This document shows positions 9,030 to 20,635 of a stretch of 37,769 bases of DNA, piece after piece. The DNA is from Candidatus Acidiferrales bacterium. GTDB taxonomy: Bacteria; Acidobacteriota; Terriglobia; Acidiferrales; UBA7541. The stretch lies in NCBI GenBank assembly GCA_030038535.1, contig JASHSV010000025.1, forward strand, positions 1-37,769. Direction: 5' to 3'. The notes beneath the pieces were generated by a model. It was given only the letters and a program-made list of their open reading frames with translations, had not been told where the DNA came from and made no database searches. Position 1 is the stretch's first letter. Every line of letters begins with the position of its first letter. Position numbers and translations under genes: made by a program.

Positions 9030-9055
9030 GCCGCGAGCGGCGATTCCTAATCGCC
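9030..9055 (-). terminator. Tandem hairpins at the end of the oxalate operon
   Basis: Two adjacent inverted repeats lie at the 3' end of the transporter gene: GGCGATT-N3-AATCGCC (9039-9055, spanning the stop codon) and GCCGC-N2-GCGGC (9030-9041). There is no T-tract, so factor-independent termination is doubtful; they might instead stabilise the 3' end. Confidence 0.3.
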
Positions 9056-10600
9056 GTGCGCTGGAGCCGCCGTCGGGTGCGGCGGGGCGGGCGTCGCCTG
9101 AGGCAGCGCGGGCACCTTCAGCGGCCGCAAAACGAAGAAGGCCAGCAGTGCGGCAATCACGTTAAAGACGATGGCCACGTCGAAGACGCCTGCCCATCCC
9201 GTGTTAGGCAACGTGAACTTGGCGGAAAATGGAGTCCATAAGTCACGAAACACGGACAGAAGGATGGCATAGGTCCCAAGGCAGGCGGACACCGCCAGCA
9301 AGATCCGCTTCAACGTCGTGCCCAGTTCGAAATGCAGTACCTCGGGTCCCAAATAGAGTGCAAACATGGCGATGAGCCCGCCCACCACAAAAAGAATGTC
9401 GGCGCGGAAATCGAAGGCCTTGCCCGCGGCAAGCGCGGATCCGATAGGCACAAAAATGGCTGCCGCGCCCTTGGCCGTGTACAGGTAGCCGTAGTTCGCT
9501 GTGGCGTGCTTGCGCCCGAAAAAGTCGCCGCAGAGCGCCGGGAACAACGAGAAGATTTCGCCCCACCCGAAGAAGGTAAATCCGCTGAACAATACGAAAA
9601 GCTTGGGACGCGCGGCAAACTGAATCAGCACGTAAATGGCGATCGCTTGCAGTCCGAACGCCAGGCCCATCGTGTTTTCCCGGCCGAAGTGGTCGGAGAT
9701 CCAGCCCCAAAATGGCCGGCAGATTCCATTCAATATCCGGTCCAGGAAGAGGGCAAATGTCAGCGCCGGCATACTCGTAAAGAGGAAGGACACCGGCACC
9801 TTGTCTACCTTGAAGTCTGTGGCCATCGGCCCGAGCTGCGCCGTAGCGATCAGCCCACCGGTGGCCACGAGGATCATCATCACGTACATCAGCCAGAACT
9901 GCGGCGTAGTGGCCATCTGGCCCGACGTGAAATCACCCAGGCTCTGCCGCTTCCTCACTATGGTTCCTGCGGGCGCCTGCCGCCACGTCCTTGGCAGCCA
10001 GCCCGCCGGCGGCGCCTTAAGGAAGCACGCCGCGATGATAACCGTGACTCCCTGGATGATTCCCCACCGCACGAACGCGGTTTGATATCCTGCCGAATCG
10101 ATCAGATCGGCGATCGGTTGAACGGTGAAGGCGGCTCCCGCGCCGAATCCCGCGGCGGTCAGGCCTGCGGCGAGCCCCCGGTGGTCCGGAAACCATTTCA
10201 GCGCGCTCCCCACGGCCGTGCCATAAACGATTCCCGCGCCGATGCCGGCGACCGCGTACCACAGATACAGCGAGGTGAGCGTTTCCGCCTTTCCGCTTCC
10301 CACCCAGCCCGCTCCGGCGAAGACTCCGCCTAGCATCACCAGCAGCCGCGGTCCGAACTTGTCCACCAGCCAGCCCTCGAACGGTACGAGCCACGTTTCC
10401 AGCAGCACAAACACCGTAAAGGTCACTTGAATGAGCGCCGCGTCTACCTTCAAGTGCTGCTGAATCGGCTTAACGAACAAGGTCCAGCCGTACTGAAAGT
10501 TGGCCACTGCCACCATGCTGAGAATGCTGAAAAGTAGAATTACCCAGCGGCTGGAAAAAAAGGAAGAGGACACATCCGCAGTGTCCTGAGAAGCGCCCAT
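9047..10600 (-). CDS. OFA-family MFS transporter, probable oxalate (oxalate/formate-type) antiporter
   Basis: The 517-residue inner-membrane protein has at least twelve hydrophobic segments and typical OFA features: NFQYGWTLFVKPIQ in helix 1, GWLVDKFGPR in loop 2-3, NGICRPFWGWISDHFGR around helix 8, and NYGYLYTAKG in helix 11. In OxlT of Oxalobacter the substrate carboxylates are held by Arg272 and Lys355. Here Arg295 and Lys377 lie in equivalent motifs with nearly the same spacing (82 versus 83), which supports oxalate or a similar dicarboxylate as substrate. It is about 100 residues longer than OxlT, with a Pro/Ala-rich tail. I prefer the ATG at 10600 (AGGGGAG seven bases upstream) to the adjacent GTG. 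It is the last gene of the gntR-oor unit, 144 bases after the beta subunit. Confidence 0.85.
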   Translation of the reverse strand: MGASQDTADVSSSFFSSRWVILLFSILSMVAVANFQYGWTLFVKPIQQHLKVDAALIQVTFTVFVLLETWLVPFEGWLVDKFGPRLLVMLGGVFAGAGWVGSGKAETLTSLYLWYAVAGIGAGIVYGTAVGSALKWFPDHRGLAAGLTAAGFGAGAAFTVQPIADLIDSAGYQTAFVRWGIIQGVTVIIAACFLKAPPAGWLPRTWRQAPAGTIVRKRQSLGDFTSGQMATTPQFWLMYVMMILVATGGLIATAQLGPMATDFKVDKVPVSFLFTSMPALTFALFLDRILNGICRPFWGWISDHFGRENTMGLAFGLQAIAIYVLIQFAARPKLFVLFSGFTFFGWGEIFSLFPALCGDFFGRKHATANYGYLYTAKGAAAIFVPIGSALAAGKAFDFRADILFVVGGLIAMFALYLGPEVLHFELGTTLKRILLAVSACLGTYAILLSVFRDLWTPFSAKFTLPNTGWAGVFDVAIVFNVIAALLAFFVLRPLKVPALPQATPAPPHPTAAPAHGD

Positions 10601-10744
10601 CACTCTACTCCCCTGGTCCCGAATCTGGCTAGAACCAAACCCGAATCCGGCGGTCGCATCCGTTCGTTGGGCCTCTAACGGGAGAAAAGAGACCCGTATT
10701 CCTTGAATCTCTCCTTGGATACTTCTCGGCCATCCCCAGCCATG

Positions 10745-11779
10745 CTATTCGGCCGGCGGCTTGTCGCCCTCCACGTCCTTCATCATGGGAATCACGCCCG
10801 GGATTAGCCACTTCTGCCACATCTCGTCAACCTTGCTTTGGAAATAATCGATGTCGTCCTTGGTGAAATGCGCGAAGCGTCCCTGCTTCATCAGATAGTC
10901 GCGCACCGGCTGCCGGACGTACCGCCCTTCCGCGATTTCCTTGGTCTTGCCCAGCAGGCGCAGGGTGTGGTTCTCCACTTCGTAAAGCGGCCAGATGCCC
11001 GTGGTCACCGCCAGTTCGCCCAGCTCGTGGGAGATGTAGGGATCGTAATCCCAACCCTTGGGGCAGGGATCGAGCGAGTGGACGAACGTCGGCCCGCCGA
11101 TCTCCAGCGCCTTCCGGATGCAGTTCATCCCCAGCAGACCGTACGACATGCAGACCGTGGCCACATACTTGCACTCGGGATGCCCTGCCGCCAGCATCCC
11201 CGCGGTATTTTTCTTCCAGCGGTGGTGCATGATCCGCTTCATTTTTCCCGGCGGGCTGAACGTGGTGTGCGCGCCGTATGGTGTCGAGCCCGAAAGCTGG
11301 ATGTCCGTGTTGGCGTACGACTCGTTGTCGTAGAGCAGAATCAGGAAGTTGTAGTCCGGATGCGTGAGCGACGCGGAAATGGCGCCCAGGCCCATATCCG
11401 CGCCCCCGCCGTCGCCGCAGAAGGCGATCACGTTGATGGGCTCCTTCTTCATCTTGCCCTTGCGCATCTGCGCCTTTAGCGCCGCCGCTGCGCCCAGGCC
11501 CGCTGAGCCGCTCGAGCCCAGTTGTGTGTGCATCCACGGCACCACCCACGACGTGCTGTAATACGTCGTGTTGGCCACGTACATGCACCCCGTGCTTCCC
11601 AGCACTATCGTGCGCGGTCCCGCTGCCTTCACCATCATTTTCATCACCAGGGCCGATTCGCACCCCTGGCAGGTGCGATGCCCGGAGGTGAAGTACTCCT
11701 CCAGGGGAATCTTCTTTACGCCCTTGAACGGGTCCAGCTTCTGCGTCGCGTCGATTTCTACGAACGGTGAAATGGCCAT
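10745..11779 (-). CDS. Oxalate (2-oxoacid) oxidoreductase, beta subunit: TPP- and [4Fe-4S]-binding
   Basis: The 344-residue subunit binds thiamine pyrophosphate and the proximal [4Fe-4S] cluster of a 2-oxoacid:ferredoxin oxidoreductase. Visible features are the CQGC pair (Cys37, Cys40), Cys65 in STGCMYVAN and Cys239 in DPCPKGW, the four expected cluster ligands. The pyrophosphate/Mg motif begins at GDGG (residues 122-125) and continues to YDNESYANTD. Together with the alpha subunit it forms the active site, where the TPP ylid attacks the 2-oxo carbon; electrons pass through this cluster to the ferredoxin domain of the gamma-delta subunit. AGGAGG precedes the ATG. It lies 51 bases after the alpha gene. 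Taken alone it could belong to any PFOR-type enzyme; the alpha subunit decides for oxalate. Confidence 0.9.
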   Translation of the reverse strand: MAISPFVEIDATQKLDPFKGVKKIPLEEYFTSGHRTCQGCESALVMKMMVKAAGPRTIVLGSTGCMYVANTTYYSTSWVVPWMHTQLGSSGSAGLGAAAALKAQMRKGKMKKEPINVIAFCGDGGGADMGLGAISASLTHPDYNFLILLYDNESYANTDIQLSGSTPYGAHTTFSPPGKMKRIMHHRWKKNTAGMLAAGHPECKYVATVCMSYGLLGMNCIRKALEIGGPTFVHSLDPCPKGWDYDPYISHELGELAVTTGIWPLYEVENHTLRLLGKTKEIAEGRYVRQPVRDYLMKQGRFAHFTKDDIDYFQSKVDEMWQKWLIPGVIPMMKDVEGDKPPAE

Positions 11780-11830
11780 TCCTGTCCTCCTGAAATTCGA
11801 ACTCGCAAGCTCGCTCGATGCAGCTCCCGA

Positions 11831-13063
11831 TTACTCCCGCAGCCCGATCCACTGGGTCGCTGGCTTCTTTTTCCCTTCGGCGGCCTCGTACAGCTCGTGG
11901 GCGATCTTTTCCACGTCTGGAACCGTCACTTCGCGTCCACCCAGCCCGCCGATGAAGTTCAGCACCGGGGGATGTTTGCTTATCGTGTCCGTGTAGAGCG
12001 CGGCCCTCGTCTCGGTTGCCACCACGCCGGACATATAGGGCGAGCCGAACGAGAAGTCGCGGTCGAGCACACCGACTGCCTTGAAGCGGGAGAGGCATTT
12101 TGCCAGCTCTTCCGCCGGGAACGGCCGGAACCAGCGCAGCCGCACCATCCCGACTTTCTTTCCTTCACTGCGCAGCTTGCGGATGGCCACGCGCGTCGGC
12201 ATCGAAAGCGTTCCCATGCCCATAATCACCACGTCCGCGTCCGCGGTCTCATACTCTTCGAAGAACGGGTTGCCGTACTTGCGGCCGAAGATGCGCTCGA
12301 AATCCGCGTACGCTTCACGAATCACTCCGGGCACCCGCTCCATCGCCGCGTAATTCTGCCGGCGGATTTCCATCACCCAGTCCTCGTTGGCCTGTGGCGC
12401 CACCGTAATGGGGTTGTCCGGATGCAGCAGCAGGTCCGCGCGGTTGTAGCGTGGCAGGAATTTGTTCACTTGGTCTTGCGTCGGAATCTTCACCATGGCC
12501 TGCGAGTGCGTCAGGAAGGCGCCGTCGCAACTGATCCCGCACGGCAGGAAGATGCGCCGGTCTTCGGCCACTCGGTAGGCGATCAGCGCGGTATCCAGAG
12601 CTTCCTGCGCCGTGTCCACCCATACCAGCATCCAGCCCAGATCCCGCACCGTCAGCGCGTCATTATGCTCCACGCCAAATGCTCCCGGATCGTCCAGGGC
12701 GCGGTTGCCCACCATGGCGATCATGGGGATGCGCAGAGCCGGCGTTACCGTCAGCGCCTCCATCGCGTACATCCAGCCCACCCCGCTCGACCCCGTGAAC
12801 ACGCGCGCTCCGCACGCCGAGGCGTGTTTCACGATCTCGAACTGCGAGTGTTCGCCTTCCGCCACAATGTATTCGCAGTCGAACTCCCCGTTGGCCACCA
12901 ACTTGGCCACGTACTGCATCACCGTGTCGTATGGGCGTATCGGATAGGCCGTGATTACATCCACGTCCGCCAGCTTGCACGCCACCGCGATCGCTTCGCT
13001 TCCCGTGATTAGTGCAGTCTCTTCCGTGCCCCGCTCCGGAAGCGTTGCCGTCATCTGTGCCAT
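11831..13063 (-). CDS. Oxalate oxidoreductase, alpha subunit
   Basis: This 410-residue subunit carries the substrate side of the active site. Pyruvate:ferredoxin oxidoreductases have YPITP; here it is YPIRP (Arg43), the change known from the Moorella thermoacetica oxalate oxidoreductase. As I recall that enzyme, oxalate is handled by Arg31, Arg109, Asp112 and Phe117. Arg43, Arg121, Asp124 and Phe129 here keep exactly the same spacing (constant offset 12) in NRALDDPGAF. Glu71 in AEGEHS is the likely TPP-activating Glu. The reaction would be oxalate to two CO2 with two electrons to ferredoxin, without CoA. The C-terminal half (about 255-385) is the transketolase-C-like domain. AAGGAG precedes the ATG. 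A different small dicarboxylate or oxoacid substrate is the main alternative. Confidence 0.87.
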   Translation of the reverse strand: MAQMTATLPERGTEETALITGSEAIAVACKLADVDVITAYPIRPYDTVMQYVAKLVANGEFDCEYIVAEGEHSQFEIVKHASACGARVFTGSSGVGWMYAMEALTVTPALRIPMIAMVGNRALDDPGAFGVEHNDALTVRDLGWMLVWVDTAQEALDTALIAYRVAEDRRIFLPCGISCDGAFLTHSQAMVKIPTQDQVNKFLPRYNRADLLLHPDNPITVAPQANEDWVMEIRRQNYAAMERVPGVIREAYADFERIFGRKYGNPFFEEYETADADVVIMGMGTLSMPTRVAIRKLRSEGKKVGMVRLRWFRPFPAEELAKCLSRFKAVGVLDRDFSFGSPYMSGVVATETRAALYTDTISKHPPVLNFIGGLGGREVTVPDVEKIAHELYEAAEGKKKPATQWIGLRE

Positions 13064-13174
13064 GGTCCGTTGCTCCTTCGCCGCTGTGCGGCCCGGTATT
13101 GTCCGGGCCGGAAATTTGCTTCCTCTCAGGCGGCCGGCCCCGGCCGGTCGCCCCGAATTCCTCTCACCGCCGCG

Positions 13175-14347
13175 CTAGCTACTCTTCGCAATTTCCAGCA
13201 TTTCGGGCGTCTGTTCCTCGTATTGGCCTTTGTACCGGAAACCGTGGGAACGGTCCGCCTTGTTCGCGATCGTGCCCTTGAGCCAGGTGTTGTACGTGTC
13301 CTTGTTCTTGCGCCACGCTTCCCACTGGCTCGAGTTGTCCTTGAAGGCCACCTCGTTCACCATCGTCACGCAGTCCTTTACCGGGCACACCGCCTCGCAC
13401 ACGCCGCACCCGCAGCAGGCCTCCATGTTCGCGTCGTACAGGCCTTCCGGCGTCACGTCGAAGCAAGAGTCGGGGCATTGCAGCCAGCACAGCGTGCACT
13501 TGATGCAGGTATCGAAGTCAATTACTGGCCGCATCGTCCGCGTGGACCACTTTTTGAACGTGGGATTCCGCGCCGGCTGGAAGCCGCCCGTTGCATGGGT
13601 CGCCGGGTCGTCCATCTTGTGTCCCGGCGCGATGCAGGGAATCGACACACCGTCCCGCATCTCATGCCATTTCAGCAACTCGAACTGGAAAGGCTTTTCC
13701 GGATTCCCCTGGCTCGGGCTCACGTTCTGCGCCGTGATGCGGTTGTAGCTGTTCGTGGCCGACTGTACCTTCACCGCGTCGTTCCATTCGTGCAGGATGA
13801 ATTGTTTCACCGAGTCGAGCTTGAGCATGTCGGGCAGCAATTTGGCTATGGCCCCCAGGATGCGCACGTCTGTGTGGTCGTCCTTGTATACCCACAGGCC
13901 GGAGAAGCTTGGGATCCCCTTCAGCACCGCCAGCTTGTAGGGATCCTGTTTCTGGTGAATCATCGGCATCAGCTTCTCAGGCGGCTCTTTCGAGGTGACG
14001 ATCAGCGTTCCTCCGGCCTTGGTCAGCCGGTTGATCGGCTGCAACCCGTACCACGCCCACGATTCCACGCCCTTGCACAGCGTGTCGTCCACGCATACGG
14101 TGATGTCCACTTCCTTCGGCTCGTACTTGGCCATGCCCTCTTCCAGCGTCAGGTCGTCCGTCGCCACGATGGCAAAGTACTTGGCTGGAATCCCGTTGCG
14201 TTCCGGGCTGTCTCCATAACGCCCGAACGAGGTTCCCGGCTTTCCTTCCAGGCTCGCGGCCAGCACGATGCCTCGGCTGATATTTTTCGCCAGCGTCTTC
14301 TGGAAGATGCCCCGGTACACGATTTCCACCGCGAACAAACGGCCCAT
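13175..14347 (-). CDS. Oxalate oxidoreductase, fused gamma-delta subunit with 2[4Fe-4S] ferredoxin domain
   Basis: The 390-residue protein begins with a gamma domain of the 2-oxoacid oxidoreductase family (AVEIVYRGIFQKTLAKNIS through about residue 185). A linker follows, then a delta-type ferredoxin domain with two CxxCxxCxxxCP motifs (Cys281/284/287/291 and Cys311/314/317/321). These clusters carry electrons from the TPP site to an external ferredoxin. A gamma-delta fusion is also seen in the known three-subunit oxalate oxidoreductase. Between the domains (about 195-265) is a segment with GHKMDDPATHATGGFQPARNP that I cannot assign, and a tail of about 65 residues follows the last cluster. 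The start has AAGGAAGGGG upstream and lies 22 bases after the gntR stop, so the two are co-transcribed. The alpha gene follows after 111 bases. Confidence 0.87.
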   Translation of the reverse strand: MGRLFAVEIVYRGIFQKTLAKNISRGIVLAASLEGKPGTSFGRYGDSPERNGIPAKYFAIVATDDLTLEEGMAKYEPKEVDITVCVDDTLCKGVESWAWYGLQPINRLTKAGGTLIVTSKEPPEKLMPMIHQKQDPYKLAVLKGIPSFSGLWVYKDDHTDVRILGAIAKLLPDMLKLDSVKQFILHEWNDAVKVQSATNSYNRITAQNVSPSQGNPEKPFQFELLKWHEMRDGVSIPCIAPGHKMDDPATHATGGFQPARNPTFKKWSTRTMRPVIDFDTCIKCTLCWLQCPDSCFDVTPEGLYDANMEACCGCGVCEAVCPVKDCVTMVNEVAFKDNSSQWEAWRKNKDTYNTWLKGTIANKADRSHGFRYKGQYEEQTPEMLEIAKSS

Positions 14348-14369
14348 GTTGGTCCCCTTCCTTTTCTAT

Positions 14370-15080
14370 CTATATCGTCTTGAAAAGAATTTCCTCAATC
14401 TCGAACAGGTGTTGTCGCATTGCCTCTTCCGCGCCCTCTGGTTCCCGGCGCTTGATGGCATTGAAAATCCGCCGGTGACCCGCCAGCGACTTTTCCGGCC
14501 TCCCTGCCACCTGCAAGGAGCGCTCGCGGCTCTCCCTCAGGATGTCCATCATCATGTCCACAACTTTCAGGATCACGCTGTTCTTGGAAGCCTGGGCAAT
14601 CGTGTAGTGAAACTCCGAGTCCTCTTCGACGGCCAGTTCTTGCCGCGCCACTTTCTCCCGTTGCCGTTCCAGAATATCTTCGAACCTCGCAATGTCTTCA
14701 CGCCCGGCGTTGCGCGCCGCGCGCGCCGCCAGTGGAGGCTCGATCATCGCGCGCACTTCTAGCAGTTCCCTCACCAATTCCCGCTTTTGGCCCAGCAGGC
14801 TGGCCAGCGGATTCAGCAACGAGTCGATCGAAGGCGTGCGGACCAGCGTGCCCTCGCCCGGTCGTGGCTCGACCAGGCCTTTCAGCTCTAGCGAGCGGAT
14901 GGCCTCGCGAACCGCGCTCCGGCTGACGTCAAATCGCTCGGCCAGCTCGCGTTCGGGCGGCAGCTTATCGCCCGGCCGTAACGCACCTTCCAGAATGCGC
15001 CGCTCGAGCTGTGCGGCCACCTCCTCATAAACTTTGGTGCGTTGGATTGTCTCCAGTTCGACTTTGACAGGGGCGGTCAC
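14370..15080 (-). CDS. GntR/FadR-subfamily transcriptional regulator (FCD domain), probable oxalate-operon repressor
   Basis: I choose the GTG at 15080 as start (236 residues). Upstream in-frame codons would run through the operator and promoter, and the product would not look protein-like there. The N-terminal GntR winged helix (about residues 9-75) contains VYEEVAAQLERRILEGALRPG, PPERELAERFDVSRSAVREA and LVEPRPGEGTLV. The C-terminal FCD domain (about 85-225) has the His-bearing helices EFHYTIAQAS, GHRRIF and MRQHLFEIE, which in this family bind a metal that coordinates carboxylate ligands, fitting oxalate or a product as effector. Its own start is preceded by a 25-bp palindrome, so it is probably autoregulated. 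It heads the operon gntR-oor(gamma-delta, alpha, beta)-transporter. Ribosome-binding site is weak (ACGGAA). Confidence 0.88.
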   Translation of the reverse strand: MTAPVKVELETIQRTKVYEEVAAQLERRILEGALRPGDKLPPERELAERFDVSRSAVREAIRSLELKGLVEPRPGEGTLVRTPSIDSLLNPLASLLGQKRELVRELLEVRAMIEPPLAARAARNAGREDIARFEDILERQREKVARQELAVEEDSEFHYTIAQASKNSVILKVVDMMMDILRESRERSLQVAGRPEKSLAGHRRIFNAIKRREPEGAEEAMRQHLFEIEEILFKTI

Positions 15081-15093
15081 GGGGTTCCGTTGC

Positions 15094-15118
15094 GGTCTGA
15101 TGGTCTGACCATCAGACC
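15094..15118. promoter_or_regulatory. 25-bp palindromic GntR/FadR-type operator
   Basis: A perfect palindrome with 12-base arms (GGTCTGATGGTC and its complement) around a central T. The core TGGTCTGACCA fits the TGGT-N3-ACCA operator pattern of FadR-subfamily GntR proteins and is identical to the core at 3564-3584. It lies between the predicted start of transcription (about 15120) and the GTG of gntR, a classical repressor position. Confidence 0.8.
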
Positions 15119-15126
15119 CGGGCCTA

Positions 15127-15157
15127 ATCCTAGCCCCGGTTCCCCGGGAGGTGTCAA
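15127..15157 (-). promoter_or_regulatory. Putative promoter of the gntR-oxalate oxidoreductase operon
   Basis: On the minus strand TTGACA (15157-15152) is a perfect -35 box. TAGGAT (15132-15127, 4/6) is a plausible -10 with a long 19-base spacer. Transcription would start near 15120, at the edge of the palindrome. The end of the -35 box lies 46 bases from the operator centre, against 44 bases at the porin promoter. Confidence 0.5.
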
Positions 15158-15176
15158 GTACCAATCGCACTGGTAC
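15158..15176. repeat. Inverted repeat GTACCA-N7-TGGTAC abutting the -35 box
   Basis: Six-base arms separated by seven bases end directly at the TTGACA box of the operon promoter. An N7-spaced inverted repeat of different sequence lies in the same place at the porin promoter (3500-3522). It could be an activator site; it also contains the TGGT/ACCA elements in the opposite order. Short arms make chance possible. Confidence 0.3.
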
Positions 15177-15288
15177 CCCGCCGTCCCTAGGCGGCCTTTT
15201 CCGTGCCAATTTCGCCTCTCTTCTGGGCGTTGGAATCGCGCCAGGCTTTGCACCCACACCCGGCTGGGAGCACAGTAGTCTGGCATCC

Positions 15289-15867
15289 ATGCGCCCCACT
15301 CGCCATTATTTTCTCTCCACCGGGCGGCTCGGATTCGGCCATTGGTCGCTCGATGACCTTCCGCTCGCCCTGGCTCTCTGGAGCGATCCGCGGGTCACTC
15401 GCTTTATTTCCGGTCCGCTCCCTCCGCAGAAAGTCGAAGAGCGCCTGCGCAGCGAAATCGCCATGCAAAATTCCCTGGGAGTTCAATACTGGCCCATCTT
15501 TCTCCGAGCAAGCGGCGAGCATGTGGGATGCGCGGGCCTCCGGCCCTACCACCAGACCAGTGGAGTGTATGAACTAGGCTTTCATCTACTACCAGCCTCG
15601 TGGAACAAAGGCCTGGCCACGGAAGCGGCCCGGGCCGTGATTGCCTACGCGTTCACCACGGTCGGAGCTTGCAGCCTCTTTGCCGGCCATCATCCCGACA
15701 ACGCCCCCTCTCGTCGCGTTCTCGAAAAACTCGGCTTCCGCTATACCCACGACGAGCTTTACGCTCCCACCGGGCAGATGCATCCTTCCTACCTTCTCAG
15801 CCCGCCGTCTCGTGTGGTGTCGGAGTGCTCCGAACCAAAACAGGACGCGGAAAAGGAGAAATCATGA
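15289..15867 (+). CDS. GNAT-family acetyltransferase (RimJ/RimL-like)
   Basis: The 192-residue protein follows the RimJ/RimL-type GNAT pattern: an N-terminal strand with LGFGHWSLDDLPLALALWSD, a central YELGFHLLPASWNKGLATEA segment (acetyl-CoA binding, with the N/G-x-G-x-A turn) and the late motif HPDNAPSRRVLEKLGF. Such enzymes acetylate the N-terminus of ribosomal proteins or small amines; the acceptor cannot be told. I take the ATG at 15289; an earlier start would run through the divergent operon promoter. The stop overlaps the start of the next gene by 4 bases (ATGA), so the two are coupled. The gene is divergent from the oxalate operon, and I see no operator closer to it than 15094-15118. 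Confidence 0.82.
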   Translation: MRPTRHYFLSTGRLGFGHWSLDDLPLALALWSDPRVTRFISGPLPPQKVEERLRSEIAMQNSLGVQYWPIFLRASGEHVGCAGLRPYHQTSGVYELGFHLLPASWNKGLATEAARAVIAYAFTTVGACSLFAGHHPDNAPSRRVLEKLGFRYTHDELYAPTGQMHPSYLLSPPSRVVSECSEPKQDAEKEKS

Positions 15868-16459: not shown

Positions 16460-17305
16460 TCAAGTGCGTACGGTTGTGGCCCGCAGGACGTGCCCTCCCC
16501 GCTCCGGCAATGGGCCGGTAGACGAGGGAAAATATCGCGCCCGGATTTCCGGCGGCCCTAGATCTTCAATCTCCCGGAAACCCAGGCCCGCGAGTTTGCC
16601 GTGGAGTTCCTGCGGCTCGAAATGCGTCAGCCATTTCTCACCCAGCGCTGCGACTCGAGCCGCTCCTTCGTCACGGTACGCGCGCATTTCCGGCGACAAG
16701 GATTCCGGGGGATCCGCGTAGTCGAACACCACATGTGCGCCTCCGGGCACGCCCGCAATAAACCCCAGTGTCCTCCAGATAGCTGCTTCAGTCAGGTACG
16801 GGACAACGCCCAACCACGTGAAGAAAGTCTGCTGCGCCGGGTCGAACCCCGCCGTAGCCAAACCGTCTGCGAGCGTCTCCAGCTCGAATTGGACGGGAGC
16901 GAATATCAGCCACTGTGGCTCCTTAATCCCCGCATCAGCCAGCCGCGCGCGCTTCCACGCCTGAGTAGCAGGATGATCCACTTCGAACATGCGCACGCGG
17001 TCTCCCCACGGGCTGCGGAAGGCAATCGTGTCCAGACCTGCGCCCAGCACTACCAGTTGGCGTACGCCGCGCTCGACCGCTGCGGCCAGTGCATCCTCGG
17101 CAAACCGAGTGCGCACCGCGATGAACAGACGCATTCTCCGCCGTGCGGGCTGTTCTCTCGCTTCGCGCGCCACCCTTTCCGCATCGACCCCAAGAATTCG
17201 CACCGCCAGCGGGTCGGCAAAAATGCTTCCGTTTTCGAGGAGTTGGTGCGCAGCGCGGTGCGCCGCCGCTGCCAGCGCTGTCCGGCTGGGTTGTCCCGGT
17301 TCCAC
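16460..17305 (-). CDS. Leucine carboxyl methyltransferase-like SAM-dependent methyltransferase
   Basis: The 281-residue protein matches the LCM/TIGR00027-type family of putative SAM-dependent methyltransferases. The signs are SRTALAAAAHRAAHQLLENG and IFADPLAVRILG near the N-terminus, the SAM-binding LVVLGAGLDTIAFR (about residues 87-100), the acidic EVDHPATQAWKR after strand 2, and FFTWLGVVPYLTEAAI. Bacterial members are implicated in O-methylation of carboxyl or secondary-metabolite groups; the substrate is unknown here. The frame starts with GTG at 17305; there is no good ribosome-binding site, so the start is uncertain. It is divergent from the relic at 17332. Confidence 0.85.
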   Translation of the reverse strand: MEPGQPSRTALAAAAHRAAHQLLENGSIFADPLAVRILGVDAERVAREAREQPARRRMRLFIAVRTRFAEDALAAAVERGVRQLVVLGAGLDTIAFRSPWGDRVRMFEVDHPATQAWKRARLADAGIKEPQWLIFAPVQFELETLADGLATAGFDPAQQTFFTWLGVVPYLTEAAIWRTLGFIAGVPGGAHVVFDYADPPESLSPEMRAYRDEGAARVAALGEKWLTHFEPQELHGKLAGLGFREIEDLGPPEIRARYFPSSTGPLPERGGHVLRATTVRT

Positions 17306-17730: not shown

Positions 17731-19119
17731 TCAGTGCCGGTAGACGTATGTGAACATGTACTCGATGCGGTCAGGATCGCGCGCAACAACCCGCCTGCTT
17801 TCCAGGGAATCTGCGAGACCGTCTGCCGCCGAAATGGGCAACTTGTCGTTCGACAGAATGTAGCCGCCGGGATTCAGCATCAACGCCATGTTCAGGCAGG
17901 CGAGTGACTGCTCCAGTTCGCCGAAGTAAATAAAAATGTTTGTGCCGATAATCATGTCGAAGCCTTCCTGTGTCCCCATCGCGGCATGCTGGAATACGAT
18001 ATTCACATCCAATTCCTTGAGGCGCCGCACGATTTCCGGGCGAATCTTCACCGCGCGCGTCTGCGTTGTTGCCGCTGCAGCCTCGGGCACGGAGATCGGC
18101 GCGATCGGTTCGCCGATGCTCGCCCCCAGCTTCTCCCAGTACTCGACAAAAGACTTGCGGTATTCGGGCGTCATTCGCGCCGCGATGTCCCAGGGAAGCT
18201 GGACCACGTAAGCCCTTCCCCTGGCCGCGTTTCGCCTTGCCCTCTCGATGTGGAAATTTACCTCGGAACTGATATCCATCGTGTACAGCTCGACCGCGGC
18301 TGGATCGCAAAGTCCCAGGCGGATCAGGGAATCGAGAACGGCAAACGGCTGGATGGTCTGCCGCGGATAGAAATCACTCCCCATTTCCTTGTTGGCGAAA
18401 TCCAGGCCTGGGCCGACCACGGCCACGCGCCGAACCGCGCCCGGCCGCAGCAGCCCCTTCTCCATCATATTCATCAGGTGCTGGTCGATCATGAAGTCCG
18501 GCCAAAGGTTCGTGTCCAGCGAGATGCCCCGGTCCTGGAATAACTGGAACCGGCTGCCCTCCTGCGTCTCGCGGACGTAGCGCGCCATCTCGTCCCGCAT
18601 CCGAGCGAGGTTTCCCAGCAGATACGTCTTGATTTTTTTCTGATCCTCCCGCGTCTGGAACGAAAAACCCTTCTTCTCCAGAAACGCGCGCATATGCGCG
18701 ATGCCTTCGTTCCGGCTCCCTGCAGCCATGGCGCGGATCAAATCGTCGGCGCGCTTATCCGCGAACGCGTCCACCAGCGAGCTCTGGCCATACTTGACGA
18801 GATAGGCGTCGTCGATCCGGTATTCCTTCGTGAACGTCACGCCGAACCTCAGCAGATTCGTGAGCGTATCCTCTTGGCCGCGCTCGAGCCGCGCCCGGAT
18901 TCGCGCGTCCTCCTGGCGCTCCCACATCGCCCATTTTTCCGCGCTCGGCAAGCCCGTCCCGCCGAGCTCCCCGGGAAGATTCGCGGCCTGCGCGCGGAGC
19001 ACCGGTTCTGCCTGCTCGTAAGTCAGAAATTGCGGATTCGTCGCCGTTTGTGCTTCTGCGAGCGCGCAAGTCGATGCCAGCAGAAGCACAACCACCGCCG
19101 GTTTCGGATTCACGCGCAT
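17731..19119 (-). CDS. Exported CheR-like SAM-dependent methyltransferase domain protein
   Basis: Starting at the ATG at 19119 the 462-residue protein has a clear Sec signal peptide (RVNPKPAVVVLLLASTCALAEA, cleavage near residue 23). After an alpha-helical region (about 30-205) comes a class I methyltransferase-like fold. RRVAVVGPGLDFANKEMG is motif I, VELYTMDISSEVNFHIERAR the acidic strand-2 region, and GFDMIIGTNIFIYFGELEQS resembles the strand-4 'FD-I--RNV-IYF' motif of CheR-type enzymes. The following helix and MLNPGGYILSNDKLP also fit. SAM is normally absent from the periplasm, so a secreted enzyme of this kind is odd; it may have lost catalysis. An earlier in-frame start would hide the signal peptide. 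The APC permease gene lies 112 bases upstream on the same strand. Confidence 0.7.
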   Translation of the reverse strand: MRVNPKPAVVVLLLASTCALAEAQTATNPQFLTYEQAEPVLRAQAANLPGELGGTGLPSAEKWAMWERQEDARIRARLERGQEDTLTNLLRFGVTFTKEYRIDDAYLVKYGQSSLVDAFADKRADDLIRAMAAGSRNEGIAHMRAFLEKKGFSFQTREDQKKIKTYLLGNLARMRDEMARYVRETQEGSRFQLFQDRGISLDTNLWPDFMIDQHLMNMMEKGLLRPGAVRRVAVVGPGLDFANKEMGSDFYPRQTIQPFAVLDSLIRLGLCDPAAVELYTMDISSEVNFHIERARRNAARGRAYVVQLPWDIAARMTPEYRKSFVEYWEKLGASIGEPIAPISVPEAAAATTQTRAVKIRPEIVRRLKELDVNIVFQHAAMGTQEGFDMIIGTNIFIYFGELEQSLACLNMALMLNPGGYILSNDKLPISAADGLADSLESRRVVARDPDRIEYMFTYVYRH

Positions 19120-19231: not shown

Positions 19232-20635
19232 TCACCCCGCCAGTGGATTGCCTGGATTCTGGAGAGCCGGGTTCTTCCGCGAACCTTTCCATCGGTAGAT
19301 CGCACCCCCACATGCCACCGTCAGCAATCCCCAGGTCGCTTCGTGCGGGCGTTCCACCAGAGTCCAACTCAGCATCCATAAACTGGTCGAAACAAAAATC
19401 GCCGGAATGGCCGGGTAGCACCAGCTCACCGCGGCCAGGCGGCGCCAGCCCGGGCGCTGGCGCAGGCGCCATAACCCGGCTACTGCCAGCGCTGCAAACA
19501 GAATCAGCGCGAAGCCGATGTAGTACACCAGCGCTTCAAACGTCCCTGTCAGCACCAGAATCGAGGACAAGAGTGCTTGGTACATGATGGCTCGAAACGG
19601 TGTCTGCCAGCGCGGATGAAGCCTTGCGGCCCCGCGCGGAAAGCACCCGTCCTGCGCCATCGCATAGTACACGCGCGGCCCCACCACGGACATGGCGCTC
19701 ACGCTCGAGAGCAAAGCCAGCGTCAGCATCCCCGCGAAAAGGGTTCCTACCCGGCTGCCGAACATGGCCTTCGCCGTCGCCGCCCCTACAGCCAGCACTC
19801 CCTCGAGCGATTCCAGCGGCAGCGCATAAATGTACGCCACGTTGAGGGCGAGATAGCAGAAAGCAACCAGCCCTGTCCCCATGAGCAGCACACGCGGCAG
19901 AATGCGCTCCGGCATCAGGATCTCTTCGGCTACATACGCCGCCGCATTCCATCCGCTGTACGCGAACATCACAAAAATCAGCGAGACCGCAAATTGCGAA
20001 GCCAGCCCGTGGGAGGAAGTGCGCGCCGCGTCCATCCCGAAATGCCCCCAATCGCCCCGGCCGGCGGTGAACCCGAGCGCCAGAAATGCGCCAATCACTC
20101 CGAGCGTGATTGCAGTCAGCCCGTTCTGGAGCCTCGCGGCCACCGCTACTCCGCGGACGTTCACCAGCGCCAGAATCGCGATCAGCGCCACACTCACCAG
20201 CCGCGCCCGGTCCACGTGCAACAATCCCCATACCGCGGGTTGCGGCGCTTGCGATGCCAGCATCGGGAAGGTCGCGCCCAGATACTCCGAAACCGCGAGT
20301 GCTCCCGCCGCGATCGGCGCCGAGAAACCGGCGAAAAACGACACCCAGCCGCTCAAGAATCCCCAAGTGGGCCCCCACGCTTCGCGCAAATATGCGTACT
20401 CTGCGCCCGACCGGGGAAGATTCACGCCCATCTCCGCGTACGACAAACACCCCGCCAGCGCGATTGCTCCACCGGCCATCCAGATCGCCAGCACCAGCCA
20501 GGGCCGGCCGAGGTCTCCGGCCAGAAATCCGCTGGTCGTGAAAATACCGGCGCCAATCGTGTTGGACACCACCAGAATCGTCGAACTGGCGGCGGTGAGC
20601 TCGCGGCGCGGAGAAACGGCCGGGCTTGCGTTCAC
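19232..20635 (-). CDS. APC-superfamily amino acid permease
   Basis: The 467-residue inner-membrane protein has about twelve hydrophobic helices and the APC signature in helix 1 (VVSNTIGAGIFTTSG), where unwound residues bind the amino-acid backbone. Further family signs are GGAIALAGCLSYAEMGVNLP and GAEYAYLREAWGP (helices 2-3), and FVMFAYSGWNAAAYVAEEI in helix 6. It is closest in style to LAT/basic amino acid-polyamine type exchangers; the precise substrate cannot be read from sequence. The start codon is GTG (20635) with a weak AGCAGG upstream. It may be co-transcribed with the exported methyltransferase-like gene that follows. Confidence 0.88.
   Translation of the reverse strand: MNASPAVSPRRELTAASSTILVVSNTIGAGIFTTSGFLAGDLGRPWLVLAIWMAGGAIALAGCLSYAEMGVNLPRSGAEYAYLREAWGPTWGFLSGWVSFFAGFSAPIAAGALAVSEYLGATFPMLASQAPQPAVWGLLHVDRARLVSVALIAILALVNVRGVAVAARLQNGLTAITLGVIGAFLALGFTAGRGDWGHFGMDAARTSSHGLASQFAVSLIFVMFAYSGWNAAAYVAEEILMPERILPRVLLMGTGLVAFCYLALNVAYIYALPLESLEGVLAVGAATAKAMFGSRVGTLFAGMLTLALLSSVSAMSVVGPRVYYAMAQDGCFPRGAARLHPRWQTPFRAIMYQALLSSILVLTGTFEALVYYIGFALILFAALAVAGLWRLRQRPGWRRLAAVSWCYPAIPAIFVSTSLWMLSWTLVERPHEATWGLLTVACGGAIYRWKGSRKNPALQNPGNPLAG

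Follow-up and report, generated by a model that had tools for sequence, protein, structure and literature searches.

The locus analysed here raises the question of what a methyltransferase fold might do behind an export signal. The window, by which we mean the whole stretch of 37,769 nucleotides from a Candidatus Acidiferrales bacterium (Acidobacteriota), encodes a protein, P0001, that combines a Sec-type signal with a fold resembling that of CheR. SAM is regarded as a cytoplasmic cofactor in bacteria, and the earlier note on this DNA had therefore proposed that the exported fold uses another ligand, has lost catalysis or is retained inside. The reading that we favour, giving it about an even chance, is that P0001 is a Sec-exported periplasmic protein in which a helical N-terminal domain precedes a class I core related to CheR and probably SAM-dependent. 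An exported family that retains its cofactor-end residues, in a phylum with further exported methyltransferases of canonical SAM motif, turns periplasmic SAM and methylation into a directly testable question. For a relative of CheR, activity in the periplasm would imply that carboxyl groups of envelope proteins or of imported compounds are methylated there.

The codons of P0001 run from 19119 down to 17734 on the minus strand, followed by a stop at 17731-17733, and contain no internal stop (Table 1). The GC content by codon position of the ORF containing P0001 is 0.63/0.44/0.76, which fits a coding ORF. The ORF is thus intact, and the Sec signal, VVGPGLDF, acidic strand-2 end and CheR-like strand-4 motif described in the earlier note are all present in it. 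The strand-2 segment reads ELYTMDIS, with D282 at its end, and the Pfam CheR match spans residues 353-422. In the helical N-terminal region, R77 and R123 are invariant and R197-G198 and D202 are near-invariant. One copy of the gene was found in the source genome, which comprises 369 contigs and is 79% complete with 4.4% contamination.

Table 1. Features of the P0001 locus in window coordinates
Feature	Position	Strand	Basis or detail
CDS of the predicted exported CheR-like protein P0001	17731..19119	(-)	462 aa + stop; family alignment
Signal peptide, residues 1-23, predicted cut after A-E-A	19051..19119	(-)	read from sequence
N-terminal helical region, residues ~30-215	18475..19032	(-)	DSSP of low-confidence model; conservation
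Class I methyltransferase-like core, residues ~228-440	17800..18438	(-)	hhalign, hmmsearch vs PDB, Foldseek
Motif I VVGPGLDF, residues 234-241	18397..18420	(-)	G236, G238, L239 invariant 16/16
QTIQPFA, residues 254-260, in the place of CheR GEEPYS by inspection	18340..18360	(-)	Q254, Q257, P258 invariant 16/16
D282, acidic end of strand 2	18274..18276	(-)	invariant 16/16; aligns with D of CheR strand-2 end
Strand-4 motif FDMIIGTNIFIYF, residues 387-399	17923..17961	(-)	T393, N394 invariant 16/16
Amino acid permease (PF13520), upstream same-strand neighbour	19232..20635	(-)	Pfam

The N-terminus of P0001, MRVNPKPAVVVLLLASTCALAEA/QTATN, begins with a positive n-region, followed by a hydrophobic core and, before Q, the A-x-A site A-E-A. 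Upstream of the P0001 Met the frame is open to a GTG at 19311 and overlaps the 3' end of the upstream gene, so the start is settled by the relatives and not by the window alone. In the closest relative (L021, 66% identity) the frame opens just 5 codons ahead of the Met. For L038, L032, L039 and L024, the listed start follows a stop by 0-1 codons, which rules out a longer start there. An upstream start that abolishes the signal, raised in the earlier note, is therefore not supported. P0001 was also considered as a lipoprotein, and this was rejected by inspection: the A-S-T ahead of C18 makes a poor lipobox, and the cysteine is not kept across the family alignment (A1).

Signal peptides were called across the family with a home-made script, not SignalP, that scores a hydropathy window, n-region charge and small residues at the cleavage site; it is lenient, and any start near the matched region may pass. 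In this survey of homologues, as the earlier note had proposed, a signal-like N-terminus was called at 27 of 31 family loci, and in 24 of these the n-region carries a net positive charge. The exceptions are L033 and L034, where a hydrophobic stretch is in frame but no start passes, L036, which fell below the threshold, and L040, a remnant of the gene for which the script's printed match was discounted. Run identically on CheR controls, the script passed 4 of the 13 that it judged, 1 of them with a net positive n-region (22 loci, 9 unjudged). In the genome of the window, it passed 1 of 15 other methyltransferases judged (25 matches, 10 unjudged), namely L145. These comparisons indicate that the predicted n-h-c signal peptide is a family trait, conserved in orthologues, and the extracytoplasmic location of P0001 is well supported in silico.

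The frame open to the GTG would allow the N-terminus to be a cytoplasmic helix or anchor, with the domain acting in the cytoplasm. Against this stand the signal-like N-termini throughout the family, the starts pinned by upstream stops, and the positive n-region, which by the positive-inside rule would place the domain outside; in addition, a methyltransferase of another family (L100, described below) follows a signal and a c-type cytochrome domain. We consider a cytoplasmic location very unlikely, and the conserved cleavable-type signals likewise count against the idea that the protein is retained inside.

A search with P0001 among 297 genomes of the phylum found relatives in 15, its own included. 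A 16-member profile, run against 396 genomes of the phylum, found them in 24, again including its own, some with two copies; one genome (G323) yielded fragments only and another (G203) a remnant. A1, the profile alignment, was made from 16 of the 21 places then known, omitting L031, L033, L034, L035 and L040. A single-sequence pattern scan of genome contigs gave two loci, L021 and L022, which both lie in assemblies of Acidobacteria, that of Candidatus Acidiferrum typicum being one. Two relatives, 66% and 52% identical to P0001, retain the signal, motif I and the strand-2 and strand-4 features, which at these identities is more than chance. No relative was found on the plasmids searched and none was confirmed on the viral contigs searched; an origin from a mobile element was rejected on these grounds. 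One copy (L031, G171:C22) is frameshifted or reflects an assembly error, and another (L040, G203:C4) is a truncated remnant; some lineages may thus be able to do without the gene.

We assessed the relationship to CheR by Pfam, profile comparison and fold search. Pfam CheR (PF01739) matched P0001 at 22.6 bits (E 7.8e-5), below the gathering cut-off of 27 bits. Among 10 further members with bit scores, L024 passed (29.1 vs 27), eight fell below and L022 was unmatched, so the cut-off was passed by 1 of the 11 members scanned. At E<=0.01, CheR matched 14 of 16 members and Methyltransf_12 matched 13 of 16. Methyltransf_11 or _12 ranked ahead of CheR in 5 of the 10 further members; L032 and L037 passed the Methyltransf_12 cut-off, and L032 passed that of Methyltransf_11 too. 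An NCBIfam scan of four members gave no model at its cut-off.

In hhalign, the family profile aligned with 13 CheR sequences over 143 columns with a probability of 97.1%, a P of 5.5e-11 and a score of 86.1, these sequences having been picked from 22 loci of the phylum by the pattern GEE(P/A)Y(S/T), a filter that the other 9 failed. The scores were 37.3 against 8 generic methyltransferases, 18.0 against 11 PIMTs and 12.8-21.2 against 8 column-shuffled CheR alignments. A profile search of the PDB was led by CheR 5ftw (3e-5), NodS (3.2e-5) and CheR 1bc5/1af7 (6e-4). The match to the NodS N-methyltransferase (PDB 3OFJ), a cytoplasmic enzyme, lies in the strand 4-5 region of the family and covers just ~46 residues.

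AlphaFold models were built from 3-sequence alignments and had mean pLDDT values of 46.0 and 47.7; being poor, they were used for fold search only and not for the pocket. With the whole mature model (pLDDT 46.0), Foldseek returned 129 PDB matches, headed by CheR 1bc5, 5y4r, 1af7 and 5xly (E 2.8e-6 to 2.4e-5), and 49 of the 50 rows listed have titles naming CheR or another methyltransferase. With the core-only model nothing in the PDB matched at E<=0.001, and CheR came up at E 0.11. The invariant G236, G238 and D282, together with the fold matches of this low-confidence model, agree with a class I methyltransferase, which has a Rossmann-type core, a glycine motif after strand 1 and an acid ending strand 2.

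P0001 shares with CheR (PF01739; PDB 1AF7, 1BC5, 5XLX) a helical N-terminal region ahead of the class I core, the strand-2 acid and a strand 4 of the form FDxI...N..IYF, compared with FDxIxCRNVLIYF in CheR. Within this strand TNIFIYF stands against RNxxIYF: the N is kept and the R is replaced by T in 16/16 members, while R occurs in just 9 of the 13 CheR sequences. After motif I, the GEE(P/A)Y(S/T) segment of CheR is absent from P0001, and the longer QTIQPF segment takes its place. CheR is moreover a cytoplasmic protein of chemotaxis systems, whereas P0001 is predicted to be exported, and no chemotaxis gene was present among the annotated neighbours of the family. The Pfam score below cut-off, the export and the rebuilt motif-I loop indicate that P0001 is not CheR itself; among the families compared, its core is nearest to CheR, as a distant relative. 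The interpretation in the earlier note is thus partly supported: the exported CheR-like fold is borne out by the family-wide signal and by profile and fold comparison, and two of the explanations offered for it, retention inside and lost catalysis, are not.

Conservation in A1 bears on lost catalysis. The residues invariant in 16/16 sequences are M1, R77, R123, G236, G238, L239, Q254, Q257, P258, D263, L265, D282, Y327, G332, T393, N394, N410 and G419. Of 37 invariant or near-invariant residues, 20 fall within 50 cofactor-end residues (p 5e-12, for segments picked after viewing the alignment). By analogy with class I methyltransferases and CheR structures, these motif positions would contact SAM. 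Since invariant residues, G236, G238, D282 and N394 among them, cluster at the expected cofactor end, the sequences do not suggest that catalysis was lost.

Motif I itself is non-canonical, with no acidic residue before the G, and a conserved insertion of ~12 residues separates GPGLDF from QTIQPF, whereas CheR passes directly into GEEPYS. The resulting family segment beside motif I, ADKEEGYDFYPxQTIQPF, shows strong conservation and is missing from CheR. Such a segment could belong to an exported enzyme whose former SAM site now takes up a different cofactor or substrate present in the periplasm. The acidic end of strand 2, which normally holds ribose, is invariant, and nothing points to any particular alternative ligand; we therefore regard this explanation as improbable.

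The rebuilding of the motif-I loop and of the GEEPYS segment would also suit an exported binding or structural protein, whose fold was recruited to the periplasm and perhaps kept a ligand (a nucleoside, SAH or a receptor-imported compound) without methyl transfer. In favour of such a protein, too, SAM is not known from the bacterial periplasm, nor is a source or export route for it there. That the cofactor-end residues, with D282 and N394 invariant, are among the most conserved of the family argues against it, and we hold the non-catalytic alternative to be possible though rather doubtful.

Under the favoured reading of a SAM-dependent periplasmic enzyme, P0001 would bind a nucleoside cofactor, most likely SAM, and would methylate an envelope protein or small molecule in the periplasm. 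By analogy with CheR, the methyl acceptor may be a carboxyl or other oxygen. From the sequences we infer a methyltransferase function for the family with about even chances.

We also investigated whether other methyltransferases of the phylum carry export signals. Strong PIMT matches in 17 genomes numbered 14. Of the 12 judged by the signal script, with L093 left out, 4 passed (L086, L088, L091 and L096), and L092 resembles a lipoprotein by eye. At 246.9, L091 exceeds the NCBI cut-off of 188 for a PIMT equivalog. The signal peptide or lipobox on these five suggests periplasmic PIMTs, which would mean protein repair in the periplasm.

A second case is a single ORF (L100:1342-2475 (-), which is G261:C7:2871-3968) that contains a signal peptide, a CAACH cytochrome domain and a Methyltransf_31 domain with the motif I ADIGAGTGY. 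Haem c is attached outside the cytoplasm, and the methyltransferase part fused to it is accordingly expected in the periplasm. At E<=1e-25, 71 of 297 genomes have relatives of L100, with some rows covering just the cytochrome half, and no other row among the 297 genomes matched both halves. In the PF13847-type family, a signal-like start was called at 27 of 30 loci, that of L100 included, and all 30 show motif I in canonical form (ADIGAGSGY, for example), a pattern that the script was set to look for. In the loci of this widespread and probably exported type, L161-L189, motif I lies near the locus middle, and HPVSGR often follows the signal peptide. The window's own genome holds one case, L145 (G000:C102:5207-5530 region (+)), in which the signal-like start MLRRSFLLALALCLFGAAPCFG lies ~45 residues before motif I; its N-terminus looks truly exported.

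These results indicate that a signal on a methyltransferase fold is not unique to the P0001 family: the phylum has other cases with a canonical motif I, and the window's own genome has one of them. The signal-bearing PIMT and PF13847-type proteins (L086, L088, L091, L092, L096, L099, L100, L145 and L161-L189) resemble P0001 in having a class I fold behind a signal peptide or lipobox; they differ in belonging to separate families with a canonical motif I, and the P0001-family profile scores just 18.0 (PIMT) and 37.3 (generic) on such methyltransferases. The retention of canonical motifs in exported methyltransferases of the phylum weighs against a non-catalytic role for P0001. Genuine extracytoplasmic SAM-dependent methylation, an option that the earlier note omitted, gains some weight from these predicted proteins. 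A broader proposal is that Acidobacteriota carry out periplasmic SAM-dependent methylation through several independently exported families (the CheR-like proteins, signal-bearing PIMTs, the PF13847-type and the cytochrome c fusion), the CheR-like one serving envelope components together with TonB-dependent receptors. We put this forward tentatively and think it less probable than not; it would imply an as yet unknown route carrying SAM out of the cytoplasm.

Methylation in the plant Golgi lumen is reportedly supplied by GoSAMT SAM transporters, a precedent, although a eukaryotic one, for SAM-dependent methylation beyond the cytosol with a dedicated SAM transporter. Secreted methyltransferases, as distinct from periplasmic ones, are reportedly found in Plasmodiophora and M. 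tuberculosis, among others. Our search of the literature on periplasmic bacterial methyltransferases found one case with proposed periplasmic action, the OMT of Anaplasma phagocytophilum, which methylates glutamates of an outer-membrane protein (PMC4636158). Its authors suggest periplasmic action from a Phobius prediction (PMC4636158). OMT, an O-methyltransferase different from P0001, has no signal peptide reported for it (PMC4636158).

The gene neighbourhood was examined for possible partners. At 12 of 31 loci, a TonB-dependent receptor gene lies directly upstream on the same strand, no more than 206 bases from where the match starts; the receptors are of the carboxypeptidase-regulatory/OMP_b-brl_4 type, for which 5 were scanned and the remaining ones assigned by similarity. 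Of these 12 loci, 7 belong to a single family of genomes (f25), and none to the window's clade (the window, L021 and L022). A receptor also lies downstream of L037, convergent to L024 and L075, and one gene away from L028 and L083. On the 29-member tree the receptor label changes 6 times, with at least 4 changes forced by starred branches.

The receptor beside L027 has its best match in genome G373 beside another family member, L078. In the 9 other genomes with a listed best match, that match does not adjoin a CheR-like gene; in G183 the best match was not among the matches listed. Since the best-match receptors mostly stand apart from the CheR-like gene, there is no single inherited pair. Receptors of this kind are common, with 18-56 matches listed per genome when at most 28 candidates were scored. 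The highest first-look receptor count was 307, in the 6.8-Mb genome G379 (vs 202 in the search that gave the 18-56 matches); this is ~4.5% of genes at an assumed one gene per kb, so chance would roughly account for at most ~1.4 of 31 loci.

A universal partnership with the TonB receptor was rejected on the 12 of 31 loci, its absence from the window's clade and the several label changes. In several lineages, relatives of P0001 may nevertheless act together with the neighbouring outer-membrane receptor. The same neighbour would fit a binding partner of a non-catalytic exported protein.

Other scanned neighbours of the relatives include TPR proteins, multihaem cytochromes, cytochrome c, FG-GAP/ASPIC and DUF3179 proteins and several that are Pfam-less. 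Within one genome family, L029 (10299-12521 (-)), L030, L033 and L034 have recurrent neighbours of ~150 aa (DUF6152) and 270-390 aa, the latter with no Pfam match in the one scanned. In the window, the amino acid permease lies 112 bases upstream of the P0001 gene and was not seen as a partner in the relatives. A PF04072 (LCM-type) methyltransferase lies at 16460-17305 (-), 425 bases downstream. Elsewhere in the window, 9047-15299 (-) encodes alpha, beta and delta-type subunits resembling those of oxalate oxidoreductase, next to a GntR/FCD regulator and an oxalate/formate antiporter; the antiporter passes its NCBI cut-off, and the subunits fall short of theirs.
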